Of a stretch of DNA of 64,000 nucleotides, positions 1 through 64,000 are shown one piece after another; positions within the stretch are counted from its first letter, which is position 1, and each line of letters starts with the position of its first letter. A model generated the notes under the pieces. The model saw only the letters and a program-made list of their open reading frames with translations. It was not told the origin of the DNA and made no database searches. Origin of the DNA: Trogon surrucura. Taxonomy: Eukaryota; Chordata; Aves; Trogoniformes; Trogonidae. The position numbers and the translations under genes were made by a program. Location: positions 28,105,501-28,169,500 of the forward strand of contig CM036621.1 in assembly GCA_020746105.1 (NCBI GenBank), read 5' to 3'.

Positions 1-790
1 CCTTCTTCTTGTATGTAGCTATGACTGCTGCACTAGTTCATTTACTTCAAGTTACAGCTGAATTTTGCTTCGCCATTTGTCCATAGTCTAGGATGTCAAT
101 GACACACAAAATTACAGTGATACAACTAATTCAACTACACAAAAAATGCATTTTTTTGTATAACCAATATTTTAATGATCAATCTCAACACCTTCTTACC
201 TGTTTCATGGTATTAATGTGAAAAGACACAGCACCTTAGAAATTATTTTGACAGATTCCAGTAAATGAATGAATTTGAATAGCATGGGGAAATCAATGTC
301 TGCTTTGATTTGTTGTAGAATTGGACCCAGTTTCAGGAAGGAGCTTTGAAACCTTGTTGTAGGCCTGAAGGGAACTGAAGACTAAAACACTGGGAATGAT
401 GAGTTTGCTTTCAGAAACTGTCGAGCCCAGCTTCAGAGCAGGTAAGACTGCACTGGGGAAGGAATCTAAGCAAAAAAAAGCCTGGCAAAAAGCTTTTGGG
501 GGGCTTTTTTTAAGCTGGCTACAGCAACCACACCTGAGGCTGCACCGGCAGCTCCAGGGCAGACACCCGAGATAGCGTGGGCGGAGCCACCCTCAGCGGC
601 CCGGCGATTTTAAACACAGTGATCAGCTGTTAACTCTGCCCTCAGGGTATAAGAAGCCTTGGGGAGGGCAGGGACTAGTCCCTGTTCACCGAACAAAAGG
701 GTAAGTCTTTGTTAAAAGGCAAGTACTTAAAAGACTTGTAAACTATTCCCTGCATAGCTTTCAGAGAGTCTTTGTATTGTAGAGCCAACT

Positions 791-1859
791 ATGGTTGCCA
801 CCAGGTCAATGGTTGTTAGAAAAACTGTGGGCACCCAGACAGAGGCCCCACGTAAGCATGTGGGTGTTCAGGCCTCGGGCTGCAGAGAATGCTGGAGCCT
901 GGCACTGGCCATGGAGGGTAGTGGAAGTGACGCTTGTGTCCGATGTGACCAGGTGAGCGATCTGCTCAGCCTGGTGGCTGAGCTGAAGGAGGAAGTAGAA
1001 AGGCTGAGGAGCATTAGGGAGTCAGAGAGAGAGACAGATCGGTGGAGTCACGTCCTGAATGGCGAGCAGCAAGCTCCGCAAAGAGCTGAATATCCCCCCA
1101 CCTCTGGCCATCAGGCAAAAGGGGGGGACCTAAAGGATAGGGAAGAGTGGAAGCAGGTGCCTGCCAGGAGAGGAAGGAAAATCCCTGCCCGGCCTCCCTC
1201 ACCTGCCCGGTTGCCCCTGCAAAACAGGTATGGGGCTCTAGACAATGCGAGCCAGGCAAAGGAAGAGTCAGTGGAGGGTTCACCCATAGGGCTGTCTAGG
1301 GTGAGTCACTCGGATACACGCGTTAGGACTTCTTCATCTAAGAAAAAAAGGAGGGTAATTGTAATTGGAGACTCCCTCCTGAGGGGAACAGAGGGCTCTG
1401 TCTGCCGCCCTGATCCGACCCACAGGGAAGTCTGCTGCCTCCCTGGGGCCCGAGTTAAGGATGTCATCAAGAAGCTTCCTGGTCTGGTCAAACCCACGGA
1501 CTATTACCCGCTTTTGGTTATGCAGATCGGTAATGATGAGATAGTAGAGAGATGGCCAGAAGCAATCAAAAGGGACTTTAGGGCACTGGGGCAGATGCTA
1601 GAAGGATCAGGCGCACAGGTTGTGTTTACCTCTATTCCTTCAATTATGAGGAAAAATAGTGGAAGGTTTGACAAAGTGCAGGAGATTAATACTTGGCTAA
1701 AGGGGTGGTGCCAGCGGTCTAGCTTTGGATTTTTTTAACCATGGGGAGATCTACAGGGCACCTGGTCTACTGAAACAAGCTAGGGTTCAAATGACACAAA
1801 GGGAAAAAAGGATCCTTGGTCACGAGCTGGCGGGACTCATAGAGCGTTCTTTAAACTAG
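791..1859 (+). pseudogene. CR1 ORF1 (zinc-knuckle-like and SGNH esterase domains), late frameshift
   Basis: CR1 ORF1 protein, expected to bind the element RNA. The open frame from ATG 791 gives 315 residues. Visible parts are a CxxC pair set (C31/C34 and C49/C52) resembling a zinc-binding knuckle, a short heptad-like acidic segment (about 55-80), a basic Pro-rich linker, and a GDSL/SGNH esterase-like domain starting with the VIGDSLL motif (G193-D194-S195) with IGNDE near 246-250. The frame stops at 1738 after a T7 run. In the next frame, homology to the usual CR1 ORF1 tail continues to a TAG at 1857-1859, so the last 40 or so codons are out of frame. ORF2 begins two bases after that TAG. Typed as a pseudogene because of the shift; a one-base homopolymer error in the assembly could explain it. 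Confidence 0.82.
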
Positions 1860-1861
1860 AT

Positions 1862-4748
1862 ATGAAGGGGGATGGGGTTATAGCTGGGATTGCAGCGGGG
1901 CAGTGCTCTAGAAATTATGAGGACCAGGTGGCCTCCCATCCCCCTAGGGTGAGATCAGTGTGCTCAGCTTGCTCCCTGAAATGCTTATACACCAATGCAC
2001 GCAGCATGGGGAATAAGCAGGAGAAGCTAGAAACCTGGGTTCGGGCAGGAGATTTTGATCTGGTGGCAATTACAGAGACATGGTGGGACAGCTCACATGA
2101 CTGGAATGTGGTCATGGGTGGCTATGTCCTTTTCAGGAAAGACAGGCCAGCCAGGCGAGGTGGTGGAGTCGCTCTTTACGTGAAAGAGCAACTACAATGT
2201 CTTGAATACCATCCAGGCATGGAGGAGGAGCAAGTTGAGAGTGTATGGGTTAGAATTAAGGGGCAGGCTGGCAGGAGAGATACTGTCGTGGGTGTCTATT
2301 ACAGGCCACCAGATCAGGGTGAGGAAGTTGATGAGGCCTTCTACAGGCAGCTGAGAGCGGTCTCACAATCACAGGCCCTGGTTGTTGTGGGGGATTTTAA
2401 CTTCCCTGATATTTGCTGGAAGGACAACTCAGCCAGCCAGCCACAGTCCAGGAGGTTCCTCCAGTGCATCGATGATAATTTTCTAATGCAAATGGTGGAG
2501 GAGCCGACTAGGAGAGGAGCACTGCTGGACCTCATCCTTGCTAACAAGGAGGATCTGGTTGAAGCAGTGAAGGTTGAGGGCTGCCTTGGCTGCAGTGACC
2601 ATGAAATGGTGGAGTTCAGGATCTCATGTAGCAGGAACAAAATAGCAAGCAGAATTGCAACCCTGGACTTCGCCAAGGCAAACTTTGGATTTTTCAAGCA
2701 ATTACTCAAGAAAATCCCATGGGCAAGGCTGTTTGAAGGTGAAGGGGCCCAAGATAGTTGGTTAGCGTTCAGGGACTGCTTCTACCGTGCTCAAGATCAG
2801 AGCATCCCGACACGTAGGAAGTCAAGGAAGGGAGCCAGGAGACCTGCATGGCTAAACAGGGATCTGCTGGGTAAGCTCACGGGCAAGAGGAGAATTTACA
2901 GATCTTGGAAGGCAGGGCTGGTCACTTGGGAAGAATATAAGGCTGTTGTCCGAGGATGTAGGGAGGCAACTAGGAAAGCAAAGGCCTCCCTAGAACTGAA
3001 CCTGGCGAGAGGGGTCAAGGACAACAGGAAGAGCTTTTTCAACTACGTGGCAGATAAAACTAACACCAGAGGCAATGTAGGCCCACTGATGAATGAGGTG
3101 GGTGCCTTGGTGACAGAAGATACAGAGAAGGCAGAGTTACTGAATGCCTTCTTTGTCTCTGTCTACTCTGCCGGAGGCTGTCCTGAGGAGCCCCGTTCCC
3201 CTGAGGCCCCAGAGGAAGTCAGGGCAGTGGAGGAGTTTGCTTTAGTCGATGAGGACTGGGTTAGGGACCAATTAAGCAATCTGGATATCCATAAATCCAT
3301 GGGTCCAGACGGGATGCATCCACGGGTGCTGAGGGAGCTGGCTGATGTCGTTGCTAGACCACTCTCCATCATCTTTTGCCAAGTCTTGGGAGACGGGAGA
3401 GGTGCCTGAGGACTGGAGGGAAGCAAATGTCACTCCAGTCTTCAAAAAGGGCAAGAAGGAGGACCCGGGTAACTATAGACCGGTCAGCCTCACCTCCATC
3501 CCTGGGAAAGTGATGGGACGACTTATCCTTGGTGCCATCTCAAGGCATATCAGGGATAAGAGGGTCATTAGAGACAGTCAACATGGCTTCACCAAGGGGA
3601 AGTCGTGCTTGACTAACCTCATAGCCTTTTATGAGGATATAACAAGGTGGATAGATGATGGCAGAGCGGTGGATGTGGTCTACCTTGACTTCAGTAAAGC
3701 ATTTGACACAGTCTCCCACAGCATCCTTGCTGCTAAACTGAGGAAGTGTGGTCTAGACTCTCGGGAAGTGAGGTGGACTGTGAACTGGCTAAGGGGAAGA
3801 AGCCAAAGAGTTGTGGTCAATGGGGCAGAGTCTGGTTGGAGGCCTGTATCCAGTGGAGTCCCTCAAGGGTCGGTACTGGGACCAGTATTATTCAATATAT
3901 TCATCGATGACTTGGATGAGGGACTAGAGAGTACTATCAGCAAGTTTGCTGATGACACCAAGCTGGGAGGAGTGGCTGACACACCAGAAGGCTGTGCTGC
4001 CATTCAGCGAGACCTGGACAGGCTGGAGGGTTGGGCGGGGAAAAATTTAATTAAATATAACAAGGGTAAATGTAGAGTCTTGCATGTGGGTAGGAACAAC
4101 CTCGGGTTCCAGTATAAGTTGGGGAATGACTTATTAGAGAGTAGTGTAGGGGAAAGGGACCTGGGAGTCTTGGTGGACAGCAGGATGGCCATGAGCCAGC
4201 AGTGTGCCCTTGTGGCCAGGAAGGCCAATGGCATCCTGGGGTGTATTAGAAGGGGGGTGGTTAGTAGGTCAAGAGAGGTTCTCCTTCCCCTCTACTCTGC
4301 CCTGGTGAGACCCCATCTGGAATATTGTGTCCAGTTCTGGGCCCCTCAGTTCAAGAAGGACAGGGAACTGCTGGAGAGAGTCCAGTACAGGGCAACTAGG
4401 ATGATGAAGGGAGTGGAGCATCTCCCTTATGAGAAAAGACTGAGGGAGCTGGGGCTCTTTAGTTTGGAGAAGAGGAGGCTGAGGGGTGACCTCATTAATG
4501 TTTACAAATATATCAAGGGTGAGTGTCACGAAGATGGAGCCAGGCTCTTCTCGGTGACAACCACTGATAGGACAAGGGGTAATGGGCTGAAACTGGAACA
4601 TAAGAGGTTCTGCTTAAACTCGAGAAGAAACTTCTTCTCAATGAGGGTGACGGAACACTGGAACAGGCTGCCCAGGGAGGTTGTGGAGTCTCCTTCTCTG
4701 GAGACATTCAAGACCTGCCTGGACACGTTCCTGTGTGGCATAGTCTAG
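1862..4748 (+). pseudogene. CR1 ORF2 (AP endonuclease and reverse transcriptase), one frameshift
   Basis: CR1 polyprotein for target-primed reverse transcription. From ATG 1862 the first part carries an apurinic-like endonuclease: TNARSM near the start, ITETWW, VVVGDFNFPD, and the GCSDHEMV histidine motif. The reverse transcriptase follows: the DPGNYRPVS motif, [21 protein letters not shown] and the catalytic FADD at 3945-3956. The first frame stops at about 3409. The rest continues in the +1 frame to a TAG ending at 4748. Comparing the two frames puts an extra base in the TTTT run at 3374-3377. Apart from this the domains look complete. Conserved residues of both enzymes are present, but with the break as read no full-length protein would be made. 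Confidence 0.88.
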
Positions 4749-25688: not shown

Positions 25689-25803
25689 CATAGAATCATA
25701 GAATCCAGCCCAGGCCATTCTATGATGACGATCATAGAATGGCCTGGGCTGGAAGGGACCTTAGAGATCATTTTTTATCCAACCTCCCTGTCATAGGCAG
25801 GGA
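25689..25803 (-). mobile_element. CR1 3' fragment with inverted end
   Basis: A minus-oriented CR1 tail (ATCATAGAATGGCCTGGGCTGG, then AAGGGACCTTAGAGATC) is preceded by an inverted copy of its first 22 bases. The two copies form a perfect hairpin. Confidence 0.85.
25705..25752. repeat. Perfect 22-bp inverted repeat, 4-nt loop
   Basis: The arms at 25,705-25,726 and 25,731-25,752 are exact reverse complements around GACG. Both arms are CR1 3'-end sequence. Confidence 0.95.
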
Positions 25804-39089: not shown

Positions 39090-40850
39090 GCAACGCTCAA
39101 ACACCCTTCGTTTGCTGCCAACGGGACCGAATCCGTCTCGCCCCCGGCACGGAGGAAGCAGCGATTCCCTGGCTGAGGAGCGGCGCCCGCCGAGCAGCAG
39201 CAGGTCCCCGCCGGCACCAGAGAGCCAGGACACTTCGCAGTGCCCCGGGCGAGAGCCCGGGCGCGTAAAAACTCTTCCACTCTTCGCGTTCACAGCGGCT
39301 CCAGAGGTGGCACTCCGCGCTCATCGCGCCGACAGCTTTCACCTGAAACCGCCCACCACGCCCTCTGCCCCCGCGCTCCATTTAAGCACAAGCTGGGGCC
39401 TTTACTCCTCCCCATAGCTACTCTGGGCGGGTCTGTGCCTCAGTATCGCTTCTCCGCTGCTGCTGTTCGGATTTCCCGGTAGACCGGGCACGTAACTCCG
39501 CCTCGTCCGGTGCTCCGTGGGCTGTCGCCAGAGCCCAGCACTGTCACCGCCCTGCCCCGGCGCCACGGGGCTTCCACTGAGGTAACTACCCGCCCTGCAC
39601 CGCGTCCTCCATCGCTTCCCCCCGCTCCTGCTGCTCCCCGACACGAGCTCCCGGAGCCCCGAACGCAGCCCCGAGACGGCAGCCCCCACCTCCCGCACCG
39701 CCGCTCCTACTGGTCGTCCGCCTCCGGCCCGACGTCCGCTCCAGCGCCCTAACGGCCGCCGCGGCGCGCGTCGGGTTGCTCAGCAACAGCGCCCGCCCCG
39801 CGCGGCGCCAAGGCGGAGCGATCTTTCCTCCTCACCGCCAAACTTCTCGGCTGACATTCGTCTCCACTTCTGCTTTACTGGTAACTTCTGTTAAACGCCC
39901 CGCCCAACAAACAACATAAAACCCTGTCCACGATAAAAATACCCCGCAAATAATTGCGACCGAAAGAATTAATTCGGTGCCTGCGTTCATTCCGAAGCTT
40001 AACGGCGCTCACCTTGTCTCGGTCTTTCCACAGCGGAAATAGAAGAGCGCAGAACGAGTCCCCCGCGGCACGCGCTGCAGCTCCCGCCTGACCAAACTCA
40101 CTCTTGGGAGGTGGGAGGCTGGTTTCCGTGTTTCTCGCGCCCTGCACAGCGGGTAGGGGACACGCACCGGGGCCAGCTATTGCCGCTCTGGCCAGTGGGC
40201 GCCGCTACAGCTCTGCCAGGACGCCCTTTGACTGGCGGCCCGTAGAGGCGCTCCCCCGCCGCGGTGCCGGCCACCCCGCCTCCGTGACGCCTCTGCGCCT
40301 GCGCGGCGGCCGTTCCGCGCCTGCGCGGCCATGGCGGCGGTGCGCGGCGCGCTGGCGGAGTCTCTCGTGGGGCAGGTGGTGCTGCCCGGGGACTTGCTGC
40401 TCCTCCCCGCCCACCCCGACGACGACAGGCTGCGGCTGGCGCCGGGCGGCGGTTCCTCGGCGCCGTGGGGCCGGCTGCTGTGCGGGCCGGGCCTGCGACG
40501 GTGCGCGGGCGGGCTGCTGGTGACCAAGTGCGGGCTGCTGCGGCACCGGCGGGCGGGCGGCGGCGCCTACTGGGTGGACTCACAGCAGAAGCGGGTAGGG
40601 AGGGCCGCGGGGGTGGGGGGGCTCCCTCGTCTCGCCCGCCTGTGCCTGACTCGTTTGTCCCCCGGCTCCCTCTGCAGTACGTTCCAGTCAAGGGCGACCA
40701 CGTCATAGGAATAGTGACGGCCAAGGCGGGTGACGTGTTCAAGCTGGACGTGGGCGGGAGCGAGCAGGCGTCGCTGTCCTACCTGGCCTTCGAAGGGGCC
40801 ACGAAGAAGAACCGGCCGAACGTGCAGGTTCGTGCTCCCGCTTGCCGCCA
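39090..40850. promoter_or_regulatory. CpG island and probable bidirectional promoter of DYDC1 and EXOSC3
   Basis: Dense CpG and G+C across this interval, in sharp contrast to AT-rich flanks. EXOSC3 starts rightward at 40,331. On the minus strand a consensus-like donor AAG|GTGAGC at 40,013/40,012 could end a noncoding first exon of DYDC1, whose start-codon exon has an acceptor at about 38,211. The two transcripts would then diverge from within a few hundred bp. The large open frames on both strands here (for example 40,098-40,742 minus) are GC-rich artefacts. Confidence 0.65.
40295..40328. promoter_or_regulatory. Paired NRF1-like sites upstream of EXOSC3 ATG
   Basis: GCGCCTGCGCGG occurs twice, at 40,295-40,306 and 40,317-40,328, spaced 22 bp start to start. 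It resembles the NRF1 palindrome (YGCGCAYGCGCR) with one central change. The second copy ends two bases before the ATG. Confidence 0.45.
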
Positions 40851-43474
40851 GCAACGCGCTAATCTCCTCGTGTGGTGGTGCTGCTGCTGCGTTTTGGTAG
40901 TTTCTTCCCAGTGAAAGTGTTTTTATCAGCCGCTTGTTGCTAAGGAGTGCGGGTTTGTTTGCGATGGTGGCTCCCTGGCCCTCCTTGGCAGCTGCTGCAC
41001 CGTCAGGTTTGCTGAGGTTTGCCAGGAGTCCGCGCAGTTGTTGCGGCTGGATGGCTGCCAGGGGGCAGGCTCTGGAGCTCCGGTGTATTTTCATTTGGCC
41101 AAAGTACTGCCAGGAGCGGGTGCAGCTTGTGAGTGATACGTGTCCAGGTGGGCATGCTGAAGGTAACGGTCTTAAAACAAGCTTTTACGCCACCAGGTAC
41201 TGGTAGAAGAGTTTTTTTAAATCACAATATTATAGACAGCTGTGTGGCACATGTATATCACAGCTTTTATATATTTCTTTTTATATATTTCTCAAATACC
41301 ATCACCAGAATGTAAAAATGACTGTAAAGAAAAACAGAATAGGTTCTAGTGTGATTTTTTGTGTTGTTCTGATAAATGATTATAAAAGGAGATTGGTGAG
41401 ACTTTTAATACACAAAGTCTGAAGAAAGATGAATTTTTATGTTGAGTAGTTAAAAAGTAAGAGGAGTGTTCCATTAAATGAAATTCTGTCCTTTAATATC
41501 TTCGATATTCCTGGAGGATACTGCCTTTGGTAGAAGAGAAAGTGAAAATTCCTATTATACCAGTTTGGTTTTGTATCACCAATGTTTTAAAACTATTTTG
41601 TGATCTTATGGGAAGAACTTTATCAGCTGTGTTTACAAATGTACAGTATGATCTTTTGCTTGTTTGATACTTTTGCTTGTTGACACTGCTTTTGTTTAGG
41701 TGGGAGATCTCATTTATGGTCAGTTCCTTGTAGCAAATAAAGACATGGAACCAGAGATGGTCTGTATAGACAGCAGTGGAAGATCAAGTGGAATGGGAAT
41801 AATTGGACAAGATGGATTCCTCTTTAAAGTTTCCTTAGGTCTAATAAGAAAGTAAGTATTAAGAAAATTAAGTAGCTACTCTGACATGTAATATGACAGG
41901 TAGGTTTCGCACAACTCTTTCGTCTGACCAGTGTGGACAATTTGGTGATCAATGTGTGCAATTGTTCTAGTGTATTTATACTAGTTTTGGTCAATATCCA
42001 TACTGTATTCAGTAAGAGGAGCATTTATTTTCCCCTTTAAGAGATTTAGGTGCTCCTCTGTGTGGTATTGTGTGACCTGTTCAAAAAAAGTGATGTGATT
42101 GCTGACGCAGTTTGGAAGATAAAACTAGTTACTTGGCTAAATCAGACATTCAGGCTAGTGTTTTAGGTATGTACCTACTACTTTGGAGTTTAGAATTTGG
42201 AAATGCTTGCTGTCCTTTTTTTGCCTAATGGGATTGTGAGGAATGTACATTCGGCTGCTAGCTGATTAAAGGGGTCCTTCCACGTTTTCTGACTTGCAAA
42301 GAAAAATAAATTGCATTGAAATAAGGATATTGGGGATTTTAATTTAAAACTGACATGTTAGCCCAGGAACCATTTCATAAACTTTTAATTATATTGTGAA
42401 CTTTAGAGCTACTTATGCTGATCTAAATATAAATTTTTTGTGACTATCAAAGAATACCAGACTATATGGATAAATGACAGCCAAGCTTTGTTGTTGTTTT
42501 TGGGCGAGTGTTTTCTGTTTGTGTCTGTTCTTTGGAAGATCAGTCTGGAGATGCAGAGCAATTGTACCTGGATTTAAGTAACAATTTGTCTGGTTTACAT
42601 GTCACATCAGAAGTCAGTGTGAATTTACACACATTTTTTTCCAGCTGTCTGCTTTTTTTCTAAATGTTGTCTCTACGCAAGTAAAGTATGTTACAAATAA
42701 ACTGCAAAATCCTGATATATTTGTTTCTTCTTTGAGAAAGCCTGTTGAAGCTTGATTTAGTCTTAGGTGTCTTATAATATTCTTGACGCTTATTTTTCAG
42801 TATGCTGTCACCTAATAAAAACCAAAATACTGTTTACTGCTGTTAATATTGTGTCCTGAAGGAGAAAGGGAGTTGTGTTTTGAAAGACATCTTTAACTCT
42901 GGTGTCAAGCTTATGAATAGCAGCATTTTTAAAATGTCACTTTGTCAAACAGTGTAGTTTAAATTTATTACATCATAGAATTGTTACAAAAGTATCAATT
43001 CACTTTAAGTTTGTCAGGTGTTAATTCTGAATCTAATTAGAAAAAATAACTACATTGAAGTGCTGTATTTTTTCAGGTGTATATATTTTATATGAGAGGA
43101 GAATTAAAAATCGGATCCTGAATTGCTATTTTGAATGCACCTTACCTTTTGGTCTTGCTTTAATAGCTCCCAAAGCACCAGTACTGCAGTTTAGTTATTG
43201 AGTGATAATGATGTGGTCTCTTGTCAAATGTGAATACTTTTTTTCTCTGACTCTTTCTCATCTTGTTTACAGACTCTTGGCTCCCAAATGTGAAATAATT
43301 CAAGAATTGTCACAACTGTACCCGTTTGAGCTGGTTCTGGGAATGAATGGAAGAATATGGGTAAAAGCAAAAACAGTTCAACAGACTTTAATTATAGTGA
43401 ATATTTTGGAAGCCTGTGAGTATATGACTGCAGAACAGAGAAAACAAGCGCTTGCCAAATTGTCAGGGAATTGA
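40331..43474 (+). CDS. EXOSC3: Exosome complex component RRP40
   Basis: Cap subunit of the RNA exosome; it binds RNA and helps channel substrates to the nucleases in nucleus and cytoplasm. Exons: 40331-40594, 40678-40827, 41700-41851 and 43273-43474 (TGA at 43472-43474), giving 255 residues; the human protein is about 275 and has a longer N-terminus. All introns are GT-AG; only intron 3 splits a codon. The ATG lies in GCGGCCATGG, a strong Kozak context. Visible segments are [16 protein letters not shown] with [11 protein letters not shown] (N-terminal domain), [20 protein letters not shown] and [19 protein letters not shown] (S1 domain, about residues 80-165), then [21 protein letters not shown] and the KH-type GMNG at 212-215 followed by RIWVKAK. 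No key residue appears lost. Confidence 0.97.
41852..43272. other. EXOSC3 intron 3: nothing notable
   Basis: AT-rich intron with normal GTAAGT donor and TTGTTTACAG acceptor. I see no repeat, RNA gene or hidden exon. Confidence 0.6.
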
Positions 43475-49500: not shown

Positions 49501-51280
49501 TCTGAAAACATATGTATAGATAAAAACTTAGCTACCACAATTTTTGGGAAAACCACCCAAAATCTTTTCCCTGAAACTGCCTGAGACTGTGCCATTCTGA
49601 CACGTACTAAGTAACATATGACATGGACATGGTGACACAGTGGGATCAAGTGCACCCTCAGCAAGCTTGCTGACACCACCAAGCTGTGTGCACTCAGCAC
49701 GCTGGAGGGCAGGGAGGCCGGGCAAAGGCACTCTGACAAGCTTGAGATGAGCCCACGCCAACCTCATGAAGTTTGGCAAGGCCAAGTGCAGGGTCCTGCA
49801 CCTGAGTTGGGGCAATCCCAAGCACAAATACAGACTGGGTGATGAGTGGATTGAGAGCAGCCCTGTGGAAAAGGACTTGGGGGTGCTGGCTGGTGAAATG
49901 TTCAACATGAGATGGCAATGTGCGCTGGCAGCCCAAAATGCTAACCATATTCTGCATCAAAAGAAGTGTGGCCAGCAGCTCAAGGAAAGTGATTATGCCC
50001 CTCTGCTCTTGTGAGACCCTACCTGGAATACTGTGTTCAGCTCTGAAGACCCCAACATAAGGACATGAGAAGTACAAGAAGGCTCTGGGGAGACCTTATA
50101 GCAGACTCCCAGTAGCTAAAGGGGACTACAGAAAAGCTGGGGAGGGACTATTTACAAGGCCATGGTAGCAATAGGGCAAGGGGCAATAGTTTTAATCTGG
50201 TGCAGGGTAGATTTAGATTAGACATTAGGAAAAAGTTCTTTACTGTAAGGGTAGTGGGACTTTGGAAAGGTTGCCCAGGGAAGCTGTGGATGTCTCATCC
50301 CTGGAAGTGTCCAAGGCCAAGCTGGATGGGGCTTTGAGAAACCCATGGTGGTGGCTTGGAACTAGATGATCTTCAAGGTCCCTTCCAACCCAAACCAGTC
50401 TATGATTCTGTGTAACGGGGCTCAGTTTTGCAAAACAACTGTTCCATGTTGCTGGACCGCTGTGCTCTGCTGTGGGAGCAGCTAACCCCTGGGAAGTGGC
50501 ATGGCCTTGTCTTCAAAATGGGCTGCTGGGGTGCCCAGGCAGACTTTCGCGGGATGTTTTCTGGTGCACCCCGGCACATGCGGTGTGTTGCCTCCAGTTT
50601 GAGCTGTGCTAGGCCTGTACTGCGATACTGTTGCTTCCAATTGGCAGTGACCTTGTCTTGTGGTGAGATTCCTTGGAAAAAAGCAAGCTCTGTGCTAAAC
50701 AAACTGCAAATAAGGGGTAGACTGAGCAGGTCTAACCAGTGGCTGGTGAGTCCCAGTTAAGAGAGAGATAAGAAAGAGCGATTTGGTTTAGGTAAGTTTA
50801 GGACATGCTGAAAAACAGTGGCTCTCAGTTGTTTGGAATGTAGACTCTCTGGTACCATCAGAGAGGTTACATGTGTTCTCCTGAGCTGCTGTTGTGTTGC
50901 TGACCAGACTGTGCTGTCACTGCTACTACCTTTTTTTGTGTGTGGTTTTTGGAGTTACAAGTGCCTGGTTAAGAGGAGATCTCAGGAAATAGTCCCTGGA
51001 TAATTAGAGTCCTCTGAGTTCCTGGCTGGATGCAGCGAAACGACCACAAGCGAGTGAGCGGCAGCGCGTTCGCTGAGCGATGTTGTGACATGTTACAGGC
51101 TGGCTTATCTGAGCAAGTATATTCTTGACGGTAATACACATAGAAGCATTTTAAGTGCCTCATTAATCAGACTACTTGGACGGTAAGCTCACTACATTCT
51201 CGGATTTAAGTGGTTTTGTGGTGCCTTTTATTTTTTAACCTTAAATATACTCAAGCACTGTATTTTGTATTTCTTTTCTT
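43560..51280. other. Intergenic region between EXOSC3 and SELENOU
   Basis: No gene that I can support. One CR1 fragment at 49,640-50,412 and a near-perfect ~20-bp local duplication near 46,540-46,575 (CTCAAATTTGTTA / TTCAAATTTGTTA). Short open frames lack recognisable similarity. Confidence 0.6.
49640..50412 (+). mobile_element. Older CR1 3' fragment (~0.77 kb)
   Basis: Plus-strand remnant of the RT C-terminus and 3' UTR: KFGKAKCRVLHL and KDLGVLAG segments are readable, then many stops. It continues with GTTGCCCAGGGAAGCTGTGG, TCAAGGTCCCTTCCAACCC and a final CTATGATTCTGTG. It is more diverged than the two MAT1A copies. Confidence 0.88.
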
Positions 51281-51299
51281 TCTTTGTCCAACCGGAAGC

Positions 51300-52150
51300 T
51301 GACACAAATCCTGGTGAGAGGACACCGGGCGCGCGGTGGGGCGGGGAACAGAAGGGTTTTGTTCCCTATAGCCGCTGCCGCCAGGGATAATCCCGCTCCG
51401 CAGGTCCGCGGGGCCGGGCGCAGGCGCGGAGTCCCGCTGCCCCAAGGCCACCGGCCGCCGCCGATCCCGGGGGGCGGGGCCTGCGCGCCGCACGTGCCCG
51501 CCGGTGGCGGTGGGACCGGCAGCGCAAGGGCGCGCGCTGCGGCAGCGTGAGTACGGGGCGGGGGGGGGAGGGGTTCGCGCCGGGACGGACTCGGGACCCG
51601 GCGCTGCAGCCGCCGCGGGGGGCGGGTTCTCCCCGCCGCGCTGCGGGGCCTGAGCAGCTGACCCGCACCGGCCTGCCCTGCTCTGCCCCGCGAGTGGCTC
51701 CTCCGCGTTGCCGCGCGTCTTCTGTGTCCCCGGCGCGGTGGCGGCCTCTGAGGGACGGGGAGGGGCTGCGGCGGGCAGCGCGACCGGCGTGAGGGGCGCC
51801 GCGGGGGAGATCGCCTCTCTCTCGCAGGAGGGCGGCGGTGGCCCCCGTCGGTTGTATCCCCCGGCGTTTTGAGGTCTAAAACTCTGCTTGTCCTTGTGGT
51901 TTAGCGCTTGATCCCTGCGCGCTTACGTAACGGGAGCGGGCACGGCAAGATCTGTGACCGACAGAGGCTCCGCGCGTCGCTGCCCTCATGCTGCGGCGCG
52001 GGGCTGGTGTCGGTGCGATCGCACCGCTCAGGAGATCCCCCGAGCGCGCCCTCAGGCAGCTGCCGGTGCCGCTGTGGTGGAGCCCGCCTGGCCTTCTCTC
52101 GCCGAGCCACAGAGACAGTTTCGCTGCCGGAGCAGGTTCGTCGCAGGCAG
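51300..52150. promoter_or_regulatory. CpG-island promoter of SELENOU with noncoding exon 1
   Basis: Second CpG-dense island in the window. A GC box (GGGGCGGGGC, 51,471-51,480) and a CACGTG E-box (51,491-51,496) precede a consensus-like donor CGTGAGTAC, with the exon ending at 51,546. The next exon begins at 56,726, two bases before the ATG, so the leader must be spliced from an upstream exon such as this one. Transcription probably starts near 51,480-51,500, which is inferred. Confidence 0.6.
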
Positions 52151-56727: not shown

Positions 56728-59700
56728 ATGTCCTTCCTTCCTGATGTTGGGATCTTCACCATGAGCGTGTGGTCTATTGGTCTTGGAGCCGTTGGTGCAG
56801 CTGTGACAGGGATCATCCTTGCTAACACTGACTTATTTTTGTCCAAGCCAGAAAAGGCTACGCTGGAGTTTTTAGAGGAGATAGAGCTAAAAACTTCAGG
56901 ATCAGGTAAGATTCTGTATGTTTCAACCCACATTCTTTGATAATTGGGCTTTTACAGAAGCCTTTTTAAGGCCAGGGTTGGAAGAGTTTTTCTTAGTCTT
57001 TCGTAATTATAATATGTAGTTATATTTTACTGGTGATAGCCAGTGATTCTGGTGAAGGAAAAGCAGCCAAAACTGATAGTTCTGGATGAAACATGATACA
57101 TATCTAAAAATCAATAAAGCAGTAATGCCATTATGCATATAGATTTATTTTTTTTCTGATAGAACTGTATTTGAATGTGGAATTCTCTGCAGTCCTTTGT
57201 GTTGGTTCTTGAAGTGTAATCATAAACAAGAATGGCTGATATTATTGTTGATGCTGTTTCTTCTGTGTAAACAGAGCAACGAACATTCAAAGCAAGTGAA
57301 CTATGGAAGAAGAATGGTGCAGTGATCATGGCTGTGCGAAGACCTGGATGATTTTTGTGCAGAGAGGTACTTGCTGGGCTTGGGGATTAATTAGGAAAAG
57401 TTGAGCTTTACTTGCATATATTCTCTTTATTTAAAAGAAGAGGGTGAATAGGACAGTCATCAAATACATCTGAAGTATCTGAAGTCTTGTTTCCTAGTCC
57501 CAAATGGCTGTCTGCTTACAGCAGACTTAGTTTCCTTTGCAACTGGTTTGCATAGTCCAAGTCCTGAGCATTTTCGTTCTGAAGGTGACGGTTACATGAC
57601 TGTGACATCTGCCAGGGAGCTCGCACATGGTAATTAGGAAGGGAGATGACACAAAATCCAATTGCTGTTGAGTCTTATAAGCTAGTTGTATTCCGTATGT
57701 CCAAAATCTCTGTGAACTAGGTAGTCTCTGGTCAGAAGCAGCCCAAGACTAGAACACACAGAAAGCCATCAGATAAAGCTCATCCAAAAAAAAAAAAAAA
57801 AAAAGAAAGAAAGAAAAAAAAAAAAAAAGAGATGTGCATTAGCCGTGCTGGATGCAGTACGTGAGGCAGGAGTGTCAGGAGTCTGAAGACAGGGAGTTAC
57901 TGTTCCATAACAAGGTGGGTTGGGAAACAAACAAGTTGGCATAAGGCTCCTTGTATGGAGATGGGAGTAAACTCCTGAGATATGATTTGAATGTACTGTG
58001 TGCCTGGGAACAGACCTAACTTGCAGCTTGGCCATTATTTTTCTCATAGCTATGGGGAAAAGTAGCTATTAAGTTGTTAGTCAGTACTTCATAATGTGGC
58101 ATAGTTAATACTGCAACCACTTAATTAAGGAATCTGCTCCCATCAGTAGTAACTACTTAAGTATGTGTAGAATTCATGAAAGGTTAAAGACTAAAATATT
58201 TTGCTCACTCAACAGATGTAGTGTAGGCAGGAAGAGAACACGCTGCATGCCTGACTTTGTGCCTATTGCATACAGTTCAACAGGAATTCATTAATTTATT
58301 TTTTTTTAATGATAACTGCGTAAGTAGAAACAGTCTCCTTCAAAGAATCAAAGGTTTTTTCTTTCAGGGAAAAAATAGGAGAGAGAAATTTAATTTTCTA
58401 GTTCTTATTTTTTGTTCAAATTTTTAACAGAGGCACTTATCAGCTAATTAGGGCAAAGAACTGTTTTGTATTTTAAGTTATACTTAAGTTTCGTATTCAA
58501 GTTCTTTACCCTGAGGATGGTGAGGCACTGGAACAGGTTGCCCAGGGAGGCTGTGGGTCCTCCATCCGTGGAAGTGTCCACGGCCAGGCTGGATGAAGCG
58601 CTGAGCAACCTGATCTAGTGGGAGATGTCCCTGCTGTGACAGGGAGCTTGGAACTACATGATCTTTGAGGTCCCTTCCAACTCAAATCCTTCTGTGATTC
58701 TATGATTAACTGTGAAAGTGTTTGAAAAACCTTTTAAATTGTCAAAACTGAAGTTAGTTTTGATTGTTGTATACTCAAAGTATTTTTCTGAATTGATTCT
58801 TGCCTTTTGCCTAAGAACAGTTCAGTTGCCTTTTTTTTTGTTCATTGATGTTTCACCATAAAATGAAAGCTGATTCTTTCTCCACTGTCACGGAGTCTGA
58901 GCTGGTGGAATGATTCAGTACAGGTAACTTGCCAGATCTGTTAACCTGCAGGCAGTAGTTTTTGGTTTTTTTTCGCAAGAGACAAAACACACGTGGTTCC
59001 CACTTACACCTTGGAAAGGAAGTTGAACTTAGTCCTTGTTGACAGCACCAAGAAGGAATATATGCTTCAGTGGACACAGTGGTGGTGTGGAAAAGTGGCC
59101 GTTCTACCTCTTATGTCACTGACATGATGTTAGTGGTGAGGGCTTGCTGCCATTATCCACTGCAAAGCATGTCACAAATCCTACTGGCCTGTTACCTCTG
59201 GATCTTTGAGAACTGAGGCCCATAGACATAAGAAATGTGGAGTCTCTTATCTTTATCATCTGCATCCTAAATCATCAGATTCTTTTTTTAAATTTTAAGA
59301 TAGGCTATGTTCAACAAGACTGCACTTCTACATCACATAGTCTGGATCTGGCCATGTGCTGATCTGTGCTCCGGTCACTGTGAAAGTGCCATGGGCTTGC
59401 TAAAATAGCAACTCAAGCAGTCTAAAGTAGCAAAAGAGCCATAGTTGAACTATCAGAGGGACAAACTGAAAAGAGAATTATTCTTTTGGGTTGTCCCTGT
59501 CTTGGTGAAGAGAGGAAGTTATTCTGCTAGTGTGAGCTTCTCTGCTTTTTTCACAAACAACAAAACAGATCCCCCCATGGTAAGGCTGTACAGCTGGTAT
59601 GTGCTACCTAATTTGCCCACAAAAATAGACTTTGCCTTCTCTTATTGTATCATAGAATCGTTAAGGTTGGAAAAGACCTCTAAGATCATCTAGTCCAACC

Positions 59701-62700
59701 ACAACCCAATGCCACCATGACCACTAAACCATGTCCCCAAGTGCCACGTCTACACATCTTTTGAACACCTCCAGTGATGGCGACTCCACCACTTCCCTGG
59801 GAAGCTTGTTCCAATGCCTCATCACTCTTTCAGTAAATAAATTTTTCCTGATATCTAATCTAAACCTCTCCTGGTGCAACTTGAGGCTATTTTTTCTTGT
59901 CCTATTGCTAGTAACTTGGGAGAAGAGACCAACACTCACCTCACTGCAACCTCCTTTCAGGTAGTTGTGGAGAGCTATGAGGTCTCCTCTCAGCCTCCTC
60001 TTCTCCAGGCTAAACAATCCCAGCTCCCTCAGTTGCTCCTCATAAGACATGTTCTCCAGACCTCCCACCAGCTTCATTCCTCTTCTCTGGACCCACTCCA
60101 GCACCTCGATGTTTTTCTTACACTGCAATGCTCAAAACTGAACACATTTTTAAATAGGCACATTTTTAAATAGCAGTAAAGAAAAAATAAAAAAAACAAG
60201 CCTAGTCCCGATATGCTGCTTGAAGCCAAGAACAGTGACAAAAAATAAACCTCACCACACTGGTGAAGTGCCTTTCTCCAAAAGGCTAACTGTGGTTTGA
60301 TAGTTTCCCTGTCTTTCCAGAGAGACAGTGATTTCTGGCTTTGCAGAGCACTCCACTGCACTAGCCTGGAACATCAGTTCTCAGACGTGTTAGATCACAA
60401 TACAAATATTTTTCATTTTTTTTTAGTTATTAGGGTTTTAAACTATAAAAGAAAATCCCAGATAAAATTGTTATTAACCCCTGTTTTTGGAAGATCATAA
60501 GGCATTTCATTGCAGGAAAATGGAAAACAGTTACACATCTGTAAGAACAGAAAAGAGGGGAAAGGTCCAACAAGTATAAGCTTTGATCTTTTAAACCTCT
60601 CCCTGCTCAGTGTTTACTTGTGATGCTGACTCATCCTTTCTCATTTCCTCTGAAAGAGACAGAGTCATGAACTGGAAAGCTGCCCTTTGCCCTTTCACCT
60701 ACTGATGTCTTTAATGTCTTTTCTCCTGTCTGTTTTTTCCTATCTGTCTGCTGCTTGGTACTCGGTACCAGATGTCCTACAAGCCTTTGAGATAGGGTGA
60801 TTTGGTTGGGTGGCTGAGGGTATTCCTGTTAAACTGTGTCCATTTTTTAAAGCGTGGAGTCCTTAGTGCGAGTTTTATCCAGGAAAAATGAACTTTCTAC
60901 ATTTGGAGGTGAAAAGAGACTTATTTTCAGTGTGCACTCTTGTCTGGCAGAAACCCGAGAGATCTTTGTACAAGCTGTGGGAGCTAGGATTCCTTCAGCA
61001 GACAAAAAGCCCAATAGATGAGTGGTGACACCTTATGCTCTTAATGCACCCGAAAAAGCAGTGCTGCTGCGGGGATGCTGAAGGTGTGTGAAGAAATTCC
61101 CTGATTGTTTTCGCTGGGGTATCTAGGAAAGAGAGCGCATCTTCACCCCACTACTTATTCTGGACTTGCTCCTGCACAGAGCCCTCAAGATACTTTGCAA
61201 AAGGGCTGATAATGATGTATTTGCATCCAGCTTGCCCTAGCCACTGGCATTCTTAGGGTTGGACGCGTTCCTGTGTGATCTACTGTAGATCATCCTGCTC
61301 TGGCAGGGGGGCTGGACTAGATGATCTTTTGAGGTCCCTTCCAGCCCTTAATGTTCTGTGATTCTGTGATTTCTACTTGGAAAAAAGAATTGGAAATTCT
61401 GGCCTGGGAAAGTTATGTTGATGTGCAGGCAGTATCTTTTTTTACTGTTCTGTAAACACTTTAAAAGATAGTTGAAGGCCTAGCACAGGCAAAGTGTATC
61501 TACAGCTTTGAGGTACAAATACATTTTCTCCAGGATTTTAATATTTTATCCAGTAAATGCTCAAAAAATCTCCTTCTTCTGGGCTCAATGAAGAAAGTTT
61601 TAGTAAACCTAATGAAGACCTGCCCAGGAGTAGAGCTAGCTTAAATGCCTGATTTACAAGTCTGTTTCTGTTTTGGTCCTCGAGCTAGAATTTACCTACA
61701 TTTCTGACACTTTCGAAATTCAAGGTGAAGCTTTCCAACCTCCATTTACTGCCTAAAATGTTTGGTGTTCTTTTGTTGGTTTTTTTTTTTCCTTCCTTAG
61801 GAGGCCTCTGAGCTCTCCTCTCTAAAACCTCAGCTGTCCAAGCTGGGTGTCCCTCTCTACGCTGTTGTGAAAGAGAAGATAGGGACTGAAGTGGAGGATT
61901 TTCAGCATTATTTCAAGGGAGAAATCTTTCTGGATGAAAAGGTATAGTGAAGACGGTGTTCTCCTTTTGTTTAAAAACAAGCTTTTCAAGTTCCTCTTTG
62001 AAGATCTTGTATAAATAATACAGATGGAATGTAGTCTGAATGAAAAAGGGTTTAGTAGCATTGTAGTTTAAGTATTTAAGTAGCTTTGCTTTTCTATATA
62101 TATATATATATACTGCTCAGCTTACAAACTGCTCTGTAGCTATGCACTGATAACATGCAGTTGCAGGTTTATTTCTCCCCTCTCCTTTAACAGGTAAACA
62201 ACGATGCCTGTTAATATTTATTCCTTTCTTCCACTGGCCCTGTGACTTGCTGATGTTTATGATGTATGTATCAAGGTCTGAAGGTGACAGACATCATTAA
62301 TTCATGGTGCACAGGCCAAATTGCAGTGATGTGGTTTGTTCCAGTACACTGGCACTTGGCTGAATAGCCAGTCTCACGTCCTACAAAACCACAGCCCTGC
62401 TGATTTCTTAACCAAGAAGGCACATTTAGAAATCATTTGGCTTTGCAAGGAAGAAGAATATGTAATAATCAAAATCAACAAGAAGACACATTTAGAAATT
62501 ATTTGGCTTCTTAAGGAAAATGAATATGTACTACTCAGAATCAACTAGAAGTTACCTTTACTTTCCCTCCCTACTCTGCCTGTGTGAAAGAATCAGGGTG
62601 ACTTTTTCTTTTCTTAAAAAAAAACCACAAAAAACCCCACAACAAACAACCCAAACAAACAAACACAGATGGCTGATAAAGTCAGGACTTGGTACCACTT

Positions 62701-63431
62701 CAGCATTTTTATTACCGTACTTCAAAAATAAGAGAAACAATGTTTATCACAAAGCACCCTTGTTGTCAGCATTGGGGATGGAGATGTACATGGGGCTTAA
62801 GTACGGCTGGATCAGCTTAAAATTCACATGAATTCGGCAGCAGTGCCACTAGTTGGCTGTGTGGAGGTAAGGGGTCAGGTATGGTGTTAAGGAGGGGTTC
62901 AGGTGCAATTTCTTTTTAGTTCTTTTTGGTTAGCTTTTGTATGTTGTGACCTTTCTTGGATACAGGGTTGGCTGACTTTCTGAGTTTTGTTTGGGAAAAA
63001 ATGTCCTTTTCACATTGGCTGAGATACTTTCTGTTTCCCTGCAGAAAGGCTTCTATGGTCCACGCAGAAGAAAAATGATAATGTCGGGTTTCTTCCGCTT
63101 TGGAGTCTGGCAAAATTTCTTCCGAGCTTGGAAAAGTGGATATAGTGGTAACCTGGAGGGAGAAGGATTCACCCTGGGAGGAGTATATGTGATTGGAGCA
63201 GGAAGACAGGTACTGCAGACCATCTAGGAGGCTTTTACATCTCCTTTGTTTTCTGGAATTGTTCAGTTGCTGGTCGGTCAATTTCCTGTGGGGAGACTAG
63301 TGCATGAATTTCTCTCTTGTGTCTTTGACTAGGGTGTTTTATTGGAGCATCGTGAGAAAGAATTTGGAGACAAAGTCAGCCTTCCATCTGTCCTTGAAGC
63401 TGCTGAGAAGATAGAATCACAAACTTCATAA
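56728..63431 (+). CDS. SELENOU (PRXL2A): Selenoprotein U1 (peroxiredoxin-like 2A), Sec at in-frame TGA
   Basis: Thioredoxin-like redox protein of the PRXL2/FAM213 family. Coding exons: 56728-56905, 57275-57366, 61801-61941, 63045-63209 and 63333-63431 (TAA at 63429-63431). They give 224 residues; human PRXL2A has about 229. Residues 12-36 form a hydrophobic N-terminal anchor. The redox motif reads RRPG-Sec-FLCRE with Sec85 (TGA, 57,349-57,351) and Cys88; the mammalian form has Cys at 85. Downstream segments [46 protein letters not shown] and [13 protein letters not shown] are conserved, so the TGA is read through and this is not a broken gene. All introns are GT-AG. A SECIS-like hairpin lies in the 3' UTR. 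The start was chosen because MSFLPDVG aligns with the family start; a second Met is at residue 12. Confidence 0.95.
57349..57351 (+). other. TGA selenocysteine codon (Sec85) of SELENOU
   Basis: In-frame TGA between GGA (Gly) and TTT (Phe), three codons before TGC (Cys88), giving a UxxC motif. It lies 15 nt before the end of its exon, with three more coding exons downstream still in frame. SelU with Sec is established for birds and fish. Confidence 0.93.
57785..57829. repeat. A-rich tract with GAAA units
   Basis: About 45 bp of A interrupted by three or four G, in SELENOU intron 3. No retroposed element is evident upstream. Confidence 0.9.
58501..58706 (+). mobile_element. CR1 3' fragment
   Basis: GTTCTTTACCCTGAGGATGG through GGTTGCCCAGGGAGGCTGTG and TTTGAGGTCCCTTCCAACTC, ending TCTGTGATTCTATGAT. 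Located in SELENOU intron 3. Confidence 0.88.
59649..60146 (-). mobile_element. CR1 3' fragment (~0.5 kb) with open RT remnant
   Basis: Reversed CR1 tail starting ATCATAGAATCGTTAAGG. The minus strand keeps an open frame (59,724-60,128) for the RT C-terminus, with [19 protein letters not shown] and [16 protein letters not shown]. It is a different subfamily from the two MAT1A copies (ends [13 protein letters not shown] rather than [10 protein letters not shown]). Located in SELENOU intron 3. Confidence 0.9.
61258..61370 (+). mobile_element. CR1 3' fragment
   Basis: TTGGACGCGTTCCTGTGTG, CATCCTGCTCTGGCAGGGGG, TTTTGAGGTCCCTTCCAGCC, and a final TGTTCTGTGATTCTGTGAT. Located in SELENOU intron 3. 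Confidence 0.87.
62094..62111. repeat. (TA)n microsatellite
   Basis: Nine TA units in SELENOU intron 4, between the exons ending 61,941 and starting 63,045. Confidence 0.9.
62414..62545. repeat. 66-bp tandem duplication in SELENOU intron 4
   Basis: Two adjacent copies, 62,414-62,479 and 62,480-62,545, both starting AAGAAG-CACATTTAGAAAT and ending with an ATCAAC-type segment. The unit length is a multiple of three and an open frame crosses both copies, but there is no splice-site support for an exon. Confidence 0.88.
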
Positions 63432-63633
63432 GTGGAAAAATGTTTCTGATGACAGCTTGAGATGTAGAATGCATCTGCTTCTTGAACGTGCAGTTTAATT
63501 GCTTCTTAACTATTTAGTAATCAACGCAGAGGAAAGATTCTCTATTCAAACATAGAAAATGATGAAAATCCTCCTGGATCTTCTTTTTTTTGCTTTGCAG
63601 CCTTTCAGGTGGTCAGAATTTCAACTGCTCTGT

Positions 63634-63700
63634 GTCTGACTGCGTTAATGAAAGGCTGGGTCTAAAATCTGACCTAGCCTAGATGTTCTCAGTCAGAGAC
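63634..63700 (+). promoter_or_regulatory. SECIS element of SELENOU
   Basis: Hairpin in the 3' UTR, 203 nt after the stop codon. Helix I pairs 63,634-63,642 with 63,690-63,700 (nine pairs, two-base bulge AG at 63,695-63,696). The SECIS quartet is AUGA at 63,648-63,651 facing AGAU at 63,681-63,684, giving U49-U84, G50-A83, A51-G82 and A52-A81. Helix II pairs 63,653-63,662 with 63,671-63,680 (ten pairs, one G-U). The eight-base apical loop UAAAAUCU carries the conserved AA run 12 nt after the AUGA. This matches a type I SECIS. It recruits SBP2 and EFSec in known selenoproteins. Confidence 0.92.
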
Positions 63701-63782
63701 AGTTGGTTGAAAACCTGTCTACCTAGGGGAGAAAAACTCTGCTAAGGCAGGAGTAATGGAGTACCAGCTGAGGTTGAAAGAT

Positions 63783-63788
63783 AATAAA
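63783..63788 (+). terminator. SELENOU poly(A) signal (AATAAA)
   Basis: Canonical AATAAA about 350 bp after the stop and 83 bp after the SECIS, so the SECIS would be retained in the mature mRNA. Confidence 0.75.
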
Positions 63789-64000
63789 ACTTTATGTAAA
63801 TTAAATCCTTTGCTTTTTGCTTTTCATTAACATATAAACACACTTGTGTTTCTAGAAAACTAAATTGTGTCAGTCTAGCTTATTCTGAGATTCTGCATTC
63901 AAGACAAGCCACTATGTCTACCCAGTAAGTTTCTTGAGTTAACTACTCACTCGAGATCTACAGGTCTTGGTGTGATTCCCTGCAAAGAAGATTGAAGATA

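Follow-up and report, generated by a model that had tools for sequence, protein, structure and literature searches.

The PRXL2A reading frame and the SECIS element

The stretch of Trogon surrucura DNA analysed here (C8:28105501-28169500; 64,000 nucleotides, hereafter the window) carries on its forward strand five coding exons of the peroxiredoxin-like 2A gene PRXL2A, also named SelU1, with a TGA codon inside the reading frame and a selenocysteine insertion sequence (SECIS) element beyond its end (Table 1). The spliced frame comprised 675 nt, i.e. 224 codons and a TAA, and extended over 56728-63431. A GT followed each of coding exons 1-4, and an AG preceded each of coding exons 2-5. The TGA at codon 85 was the sole internal stop, and the two alternative frames of the spliced sequence contained 13 and 12 stops. 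No frameshifts or broken splice sites, the signs of a pseudogene that were looked for, were found in the five coding exons. Read in phase with the upstream exon, the TGA exon translated as ...AVRRPG-TGA-FLCRE; residues 85-88 thus read UFLC (U, selenocysteine, Sec), with Cys88 completing a U-x-x-C motif. The spliced frame bears out the initial annotation, which had placed the TGA in this exon and had described three further exons leading to a normal TAA.

The spliced protein matched Pfam PF13911 (AhpC-TSA_2) over residues 94-202 (76.8 bits, 2.1e-21) and PF00578 (27.6 bits), both above the cut-off. The homologue search was restricted to proteins with a length between 0.55 and 1.75 times that of the query, and the best 120 of 540 relatives were listed and aligned. 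The best of these were named peroxiredoxin-like 2A and came from grouse (89% identity), turtles (80-82%) and other birds; the protein therefore combines a Prx-like 2/AhpC-TSA_2 domain with its closest listed similarity to PRXL2A. Identity before and after the TGA was 70/84 and 128/139 for the grouse Lagopus leucura (P0001), 66/84 and 117/139 for a turtle (P0003), 58/84 and 106/139 for a ground squirrel (P0021), and 53/83 and 98/139 for Xenopus (P0089). Judged from these four rows, constraint past the TGA is no weaker than ahead of it.

Vertebrate selenoproteins require a SECIS element, which the initial annotation had not mentioned. We found one on the same strand, 206 bases past the TAA and 626 nt of spliced sequence from the UGA. 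At the gathering threshold, Rfam returned no match to any family in the whole window; the absence of a SECIS that this would wrongly imply was overturned by permissive searches. In 63400-64000 (601 bases), RF00031 (SECIS_1) matched with 31.9 bits (E 0.0002) over model positions 1-64 of 64, and the next-best of the 12 permissive matches by bits scored 19.8. Across the whole window at E ≤ 1, four Rfam matches were obtained, among which the SECIS was unique of its kind and ranked third (E 0.022), behind two weak mir-3524 matches.

The region 63625-63710 folded with -39 kcal/mol vs -19.97 on average for its shuffles (z -6.63), and none of 200 shuffles was equally stable. The core (63648-63684) consisted of AUGA-A, a 10-pair helix, the apical loop UAAAAUCU and AGAU; UGAA opposite AGAU is the usual non-Watson-Crick quartet of SECIS elements. 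A strict scan of both strands for AUGA, a helix of at least 8 pairs, a loop with AA, and NGAN returned this single place in the window. The same scan, run on 40 first-order Markov simulations based on the window, averaged 0.075 places (maximum 1), or 0.025 if a 6-pair outer helix was also required. A loose, sequence-only pattern was uninformative and was set aside, with 18 matches vs 13.03 expected and at least 18 reached in 17 of 100 shuffles.

Table 1. Features of the PRXL2A locus, in window positions
Feature	Position	Strand	Content and evidence
PRXL2A coding exon 1	56728-56905	+	residues 1-59 and first base of codon 60; spliced translation; 89% in genome protein search
PRXL2A exon holding the in-frame TGA	57275-57366	+	codons 60-90; AG/GT borders
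TGA, codon 85, predicted selenocysteine	57349-57351	+	UxxC with Cys88; C aligned in 94/120 listed relatives
PRXL2A coding exon 3	61801-61941	+	residues 91-137; spliced translation
PRXL2A coding exon 4	63045-63209	+	residues 138-192; 93% in genome protein search
PRXL2A last coding exon	63333-63431	+	residues 193-224 and TAA; spliced translation
SECIS element	63638-63694	+	Rfam RF00031; fold; only strict structural match in window
Poly(A) signal AATAAA	63783-63788	+	pattern scan; 3' of SECIS; further A[A/T]TAAA match at 63800

Counterparts in other species

The closest described counterpart was the turkey SELU/SELENOU gene (FAM213A, GenBank KR528576). According to the part of PMC4466519 that covers it, the turkey cDNA carries a UGA and a SECIS, with the Sec codon at the position where mammals have Cys, as in Trogon. 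The row for SELU given there lists the UGA at 240-242, coding sequence (CDS) to 674, the SECIS at 888-924, a length of 1059, 223 residues and Sec at 80. From the UGA to the CDS end we counted 420 nt in Trogon vs 432 in that row, i.e. four more codons after the UGA in turkey; from the CDS end to the SECIS the values were 217 and 214 nt, and the SECIS spanned 37 nt in both. The spacings of UGA, stop and SECIS thus match the tabulated ones within 12 bases. The Trogon protein has 224 residues vs the 223 of the turkey row, and its Sec is numbered 85 vs 80 in that table, in which the turkey 5' end is marked incomplete. Moreover, the published turkey SELU primers matched the Trogon locus with 1 and 3 mismatches.

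Mammalian PRXL2A, the Cys form of SelU1, belongs to the same family and differs from the Trogon protein by having Cys instead of Sec; the flanks VRRPG-x-FLCRE were present in most aligned rows. The best sequence match among solved structures was prostamide/prostaglandin F synthase (PDB 9us9, E 8.2e-16, residues 66-214), which has Cys at the Sec site; a second solved chain, 9usa, matched with E 5.3e-13. This enzyme belongs to another subfamily than the Trogon protein, one for which an enzymatic activity has been named, and the relevant section of PMC3473315 places it in the SelU3 group.

The Sec form of SelU1 in birds is already described, and the locus is not new in this respect. The first description of SelU is reportedly that of Castellano and colleagues in 2004. 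The same section of PMC3473315 states that SelU was initially found in fish and that it is reported in birds; in Table 1 of PMC3316567, SelU1 (Selenoprotein U1a) is marked as present in fish, birds and platypus, and not in frog, marsupials or placentals. Expression of SELENOU in turkeys appears in an excerpt of PMC5708738, and its mRNA was 2.62-fold lower in Se-deficient liver according to an excerpt of PMC7205448. A literature search combining PRXL2A with selenocysteine and chicken found nothing. The excerpts of PMC3334997, PMC4561486 and PMC10812781 contained nothing on avian SelU, and PMC10958145, in which a term search gave no hits, deals with GPX6 instead.

Probable recoding of the UGA and competing explanations

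The locus is almost certainly the bird orthologue of PRXL2A (SELENOU1), in which the UGA at codon 85 would be recoded by way of the SECIS in the 3' untranslated region to give a 224-residue selenoprotein with a Sec85/Cys88 redox motif. The SECIS would recruit SECISBP2 and EEFSEC with tRNA-Sec, leading to recoding of UGA 85, which is the established mechanism of vertebrate selenoproteins. The predicted product is a thioredoxin-fold (Prx-like 2) redox protein; from the features above we infer that Sec is inserted at codon 85 and that the U-x-x-C pair has a redox role. The pairing of Sec85 with Cys88 in a UxxC motif had been proposed by the initial annotation, and it gains support from the SECIS, the conserved downstream frame, Cys in most listed relatives, and the UGA and SECIS of turkey. 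The locus indicates that the Trogon genome has retained SelU1 in its Sec form, whereas Cys has taken the place of Sec in placental mammals, and the exact positions of the UGA and SECIS permit correct annotation of PRXL2A.

Under scarce selenium, the UGA would be a premature stop located in an internal exon, and the mRNA would decay. The fall of turkey SELENOU mRNA in Se deficiency, as excerpted above, would be expected if the UGA then acts in this way. We consider it very unlikely that the UGA is a selenium-dependent branch point with two used products, full-length SelU1 under ample selenium and, under scarcity, an 84-residue N-terminal protein that has a role of its own.

Some observations weigh against recoding of the UGA. 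The SECIS score is below the Rfam curated cut-off of 35 bits, but the core motifs, helix and fold are present. In favour of recoding, the in-frame UGA occupies the conserved-Cys position of PRXL2A, with C in 94, a gap in 23, W in 2 and V in 1 of the 120 aligned rows at residue 85. Against this, the C rows may be a mixture of Sec and Cys, since the homologue tool writes U as C, and related rows are not independent. Finally, 13 of the 23 gap rows jump from about VIMA to EA (P0007, P0008, P0014, P0017, P0018, P0042, P0075, P0098, P0100, P0104, P0110, P0116 and P0118), which in Trogon would correspond to in-frame joining of the GT at 57334 with the following exon; a Sec-free splice form may therefore exist. 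Splicing from this GT inside the exon would remove the TGA stretch and make a Sec-free form the main product. We regard this as highly improbable, even with 13 of the 120 listed rows passing directly across the stretch: what is removed would contain the redox motif, and the UGA is retained in the cloned turkey cDNA (excerpt of PMC4466519). Four further gap rows, all from fish (P0111, P0114, P0115 and P0117), lack that single residue only; this also speaks against such splicing, as these gene models look as if they had been drawn to get round a stop codon. The remaining six gap rows differ otherwise, and one of them is from the giant panda (P0099); gaps are thus not specific to Sec species, and because of this row a gap alone is no proof of a TGA. 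The two W rows may represent a TGA read as Trp.

Six listed rows were named for birds. Five of them (P0007, P0008, P0023, P0029 and P0075) lacked the site residues, and P0001 showed C, possibly standing in for U in that database. Bird gene models thus seem to skip the redox stretch, and the active site may often be misrepresented in database proteins of avian PRXL2A. The initial annotation had expected standard pipelines to fail here by truncating the protein at residue 84 or calling a pseudogene. This was partly right: a failure as such seems to show in the five bird rows without the site; truncation at 84 was invisible to our search, in which no such row could appear because of the limit on relative length. 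These five bird models without the TGA stretch would also suit a pseudogene or nonsense allele in which the TGA, a stop in the standard code, truncates the protein at residue 84. This explanation is extremely unlikely given the intact splice borders and remaining frame, the identity of 128/139 residues past the TGA to the grouse protein, and the presence of a SECIS. Moreover, the genome search revealed no other close copy, and the turkey orthologue has the UGA as well (PMC4466519, in the part cited above). To an assembly or base-call error in a Cys codon TGC or TGT we assign next to no likelihood, though a single base would give Cys, the residue shown at the site by the 94 listed relatives counted above.

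Genome copies and neighbourhood

The genome search with the SelU1 protein covered 1.166 Gb in 164 contigs and gave five matches, all of them exons of this PRXL2A locus; a second close copy was not seen in this one protein search, which scored the best candidates only. A second genomic AhpC-TSA_2 match was present on contig C67 (L001, 1501-1989), listed with six internal stops. We rejected it as a decayed copy, as its coding pieces seem to be separated by introns (bases 1-3000 of 3489, read by eye). It is probably another PRXL2 family gene, presumably PRXL2C. L001 was not listed by the SelU1 protein search, and distant paralogues therefore escape that search.

The AG directly before the PRXL2A ATG points to a non-coding exon farther upstream. 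Ahead of the coding exons, the window is GC-rich at 50001-52000 (GC 0.57, CpG observed/expected 0.75), and it is plausible that this stretch holds the PRXL2A promoter and a non-coding first exon.

Exons of EXOSC3 (RRP40) were located on the + strand at 40232-43471, with matches to RRP40_N_mamm (104.1 bits, in 40232-40705), RRP40_S1 (70 bits, in 40288-40911) and KH_6 (48.1 bits, in 43202-43471); in human, EXOSC3 and PRXL2A lie on different chromosomes. The weak mir-3524 matches at 25698-25759 (34.3 and 32.5 bits vs a cut-off of 99) fall on both strands, which suggests a palindromic repeat and not a microRNA gene. A LINE-type (long interspersed nuclear element) retroelement occupied 1784-4745 on the + strand, with an endonuclease (PF03372, 63.9 bits) followed in the next frame by a reverse transcriptase (PF00078, 112 bits), the two frames overlapping at 3333-3409.
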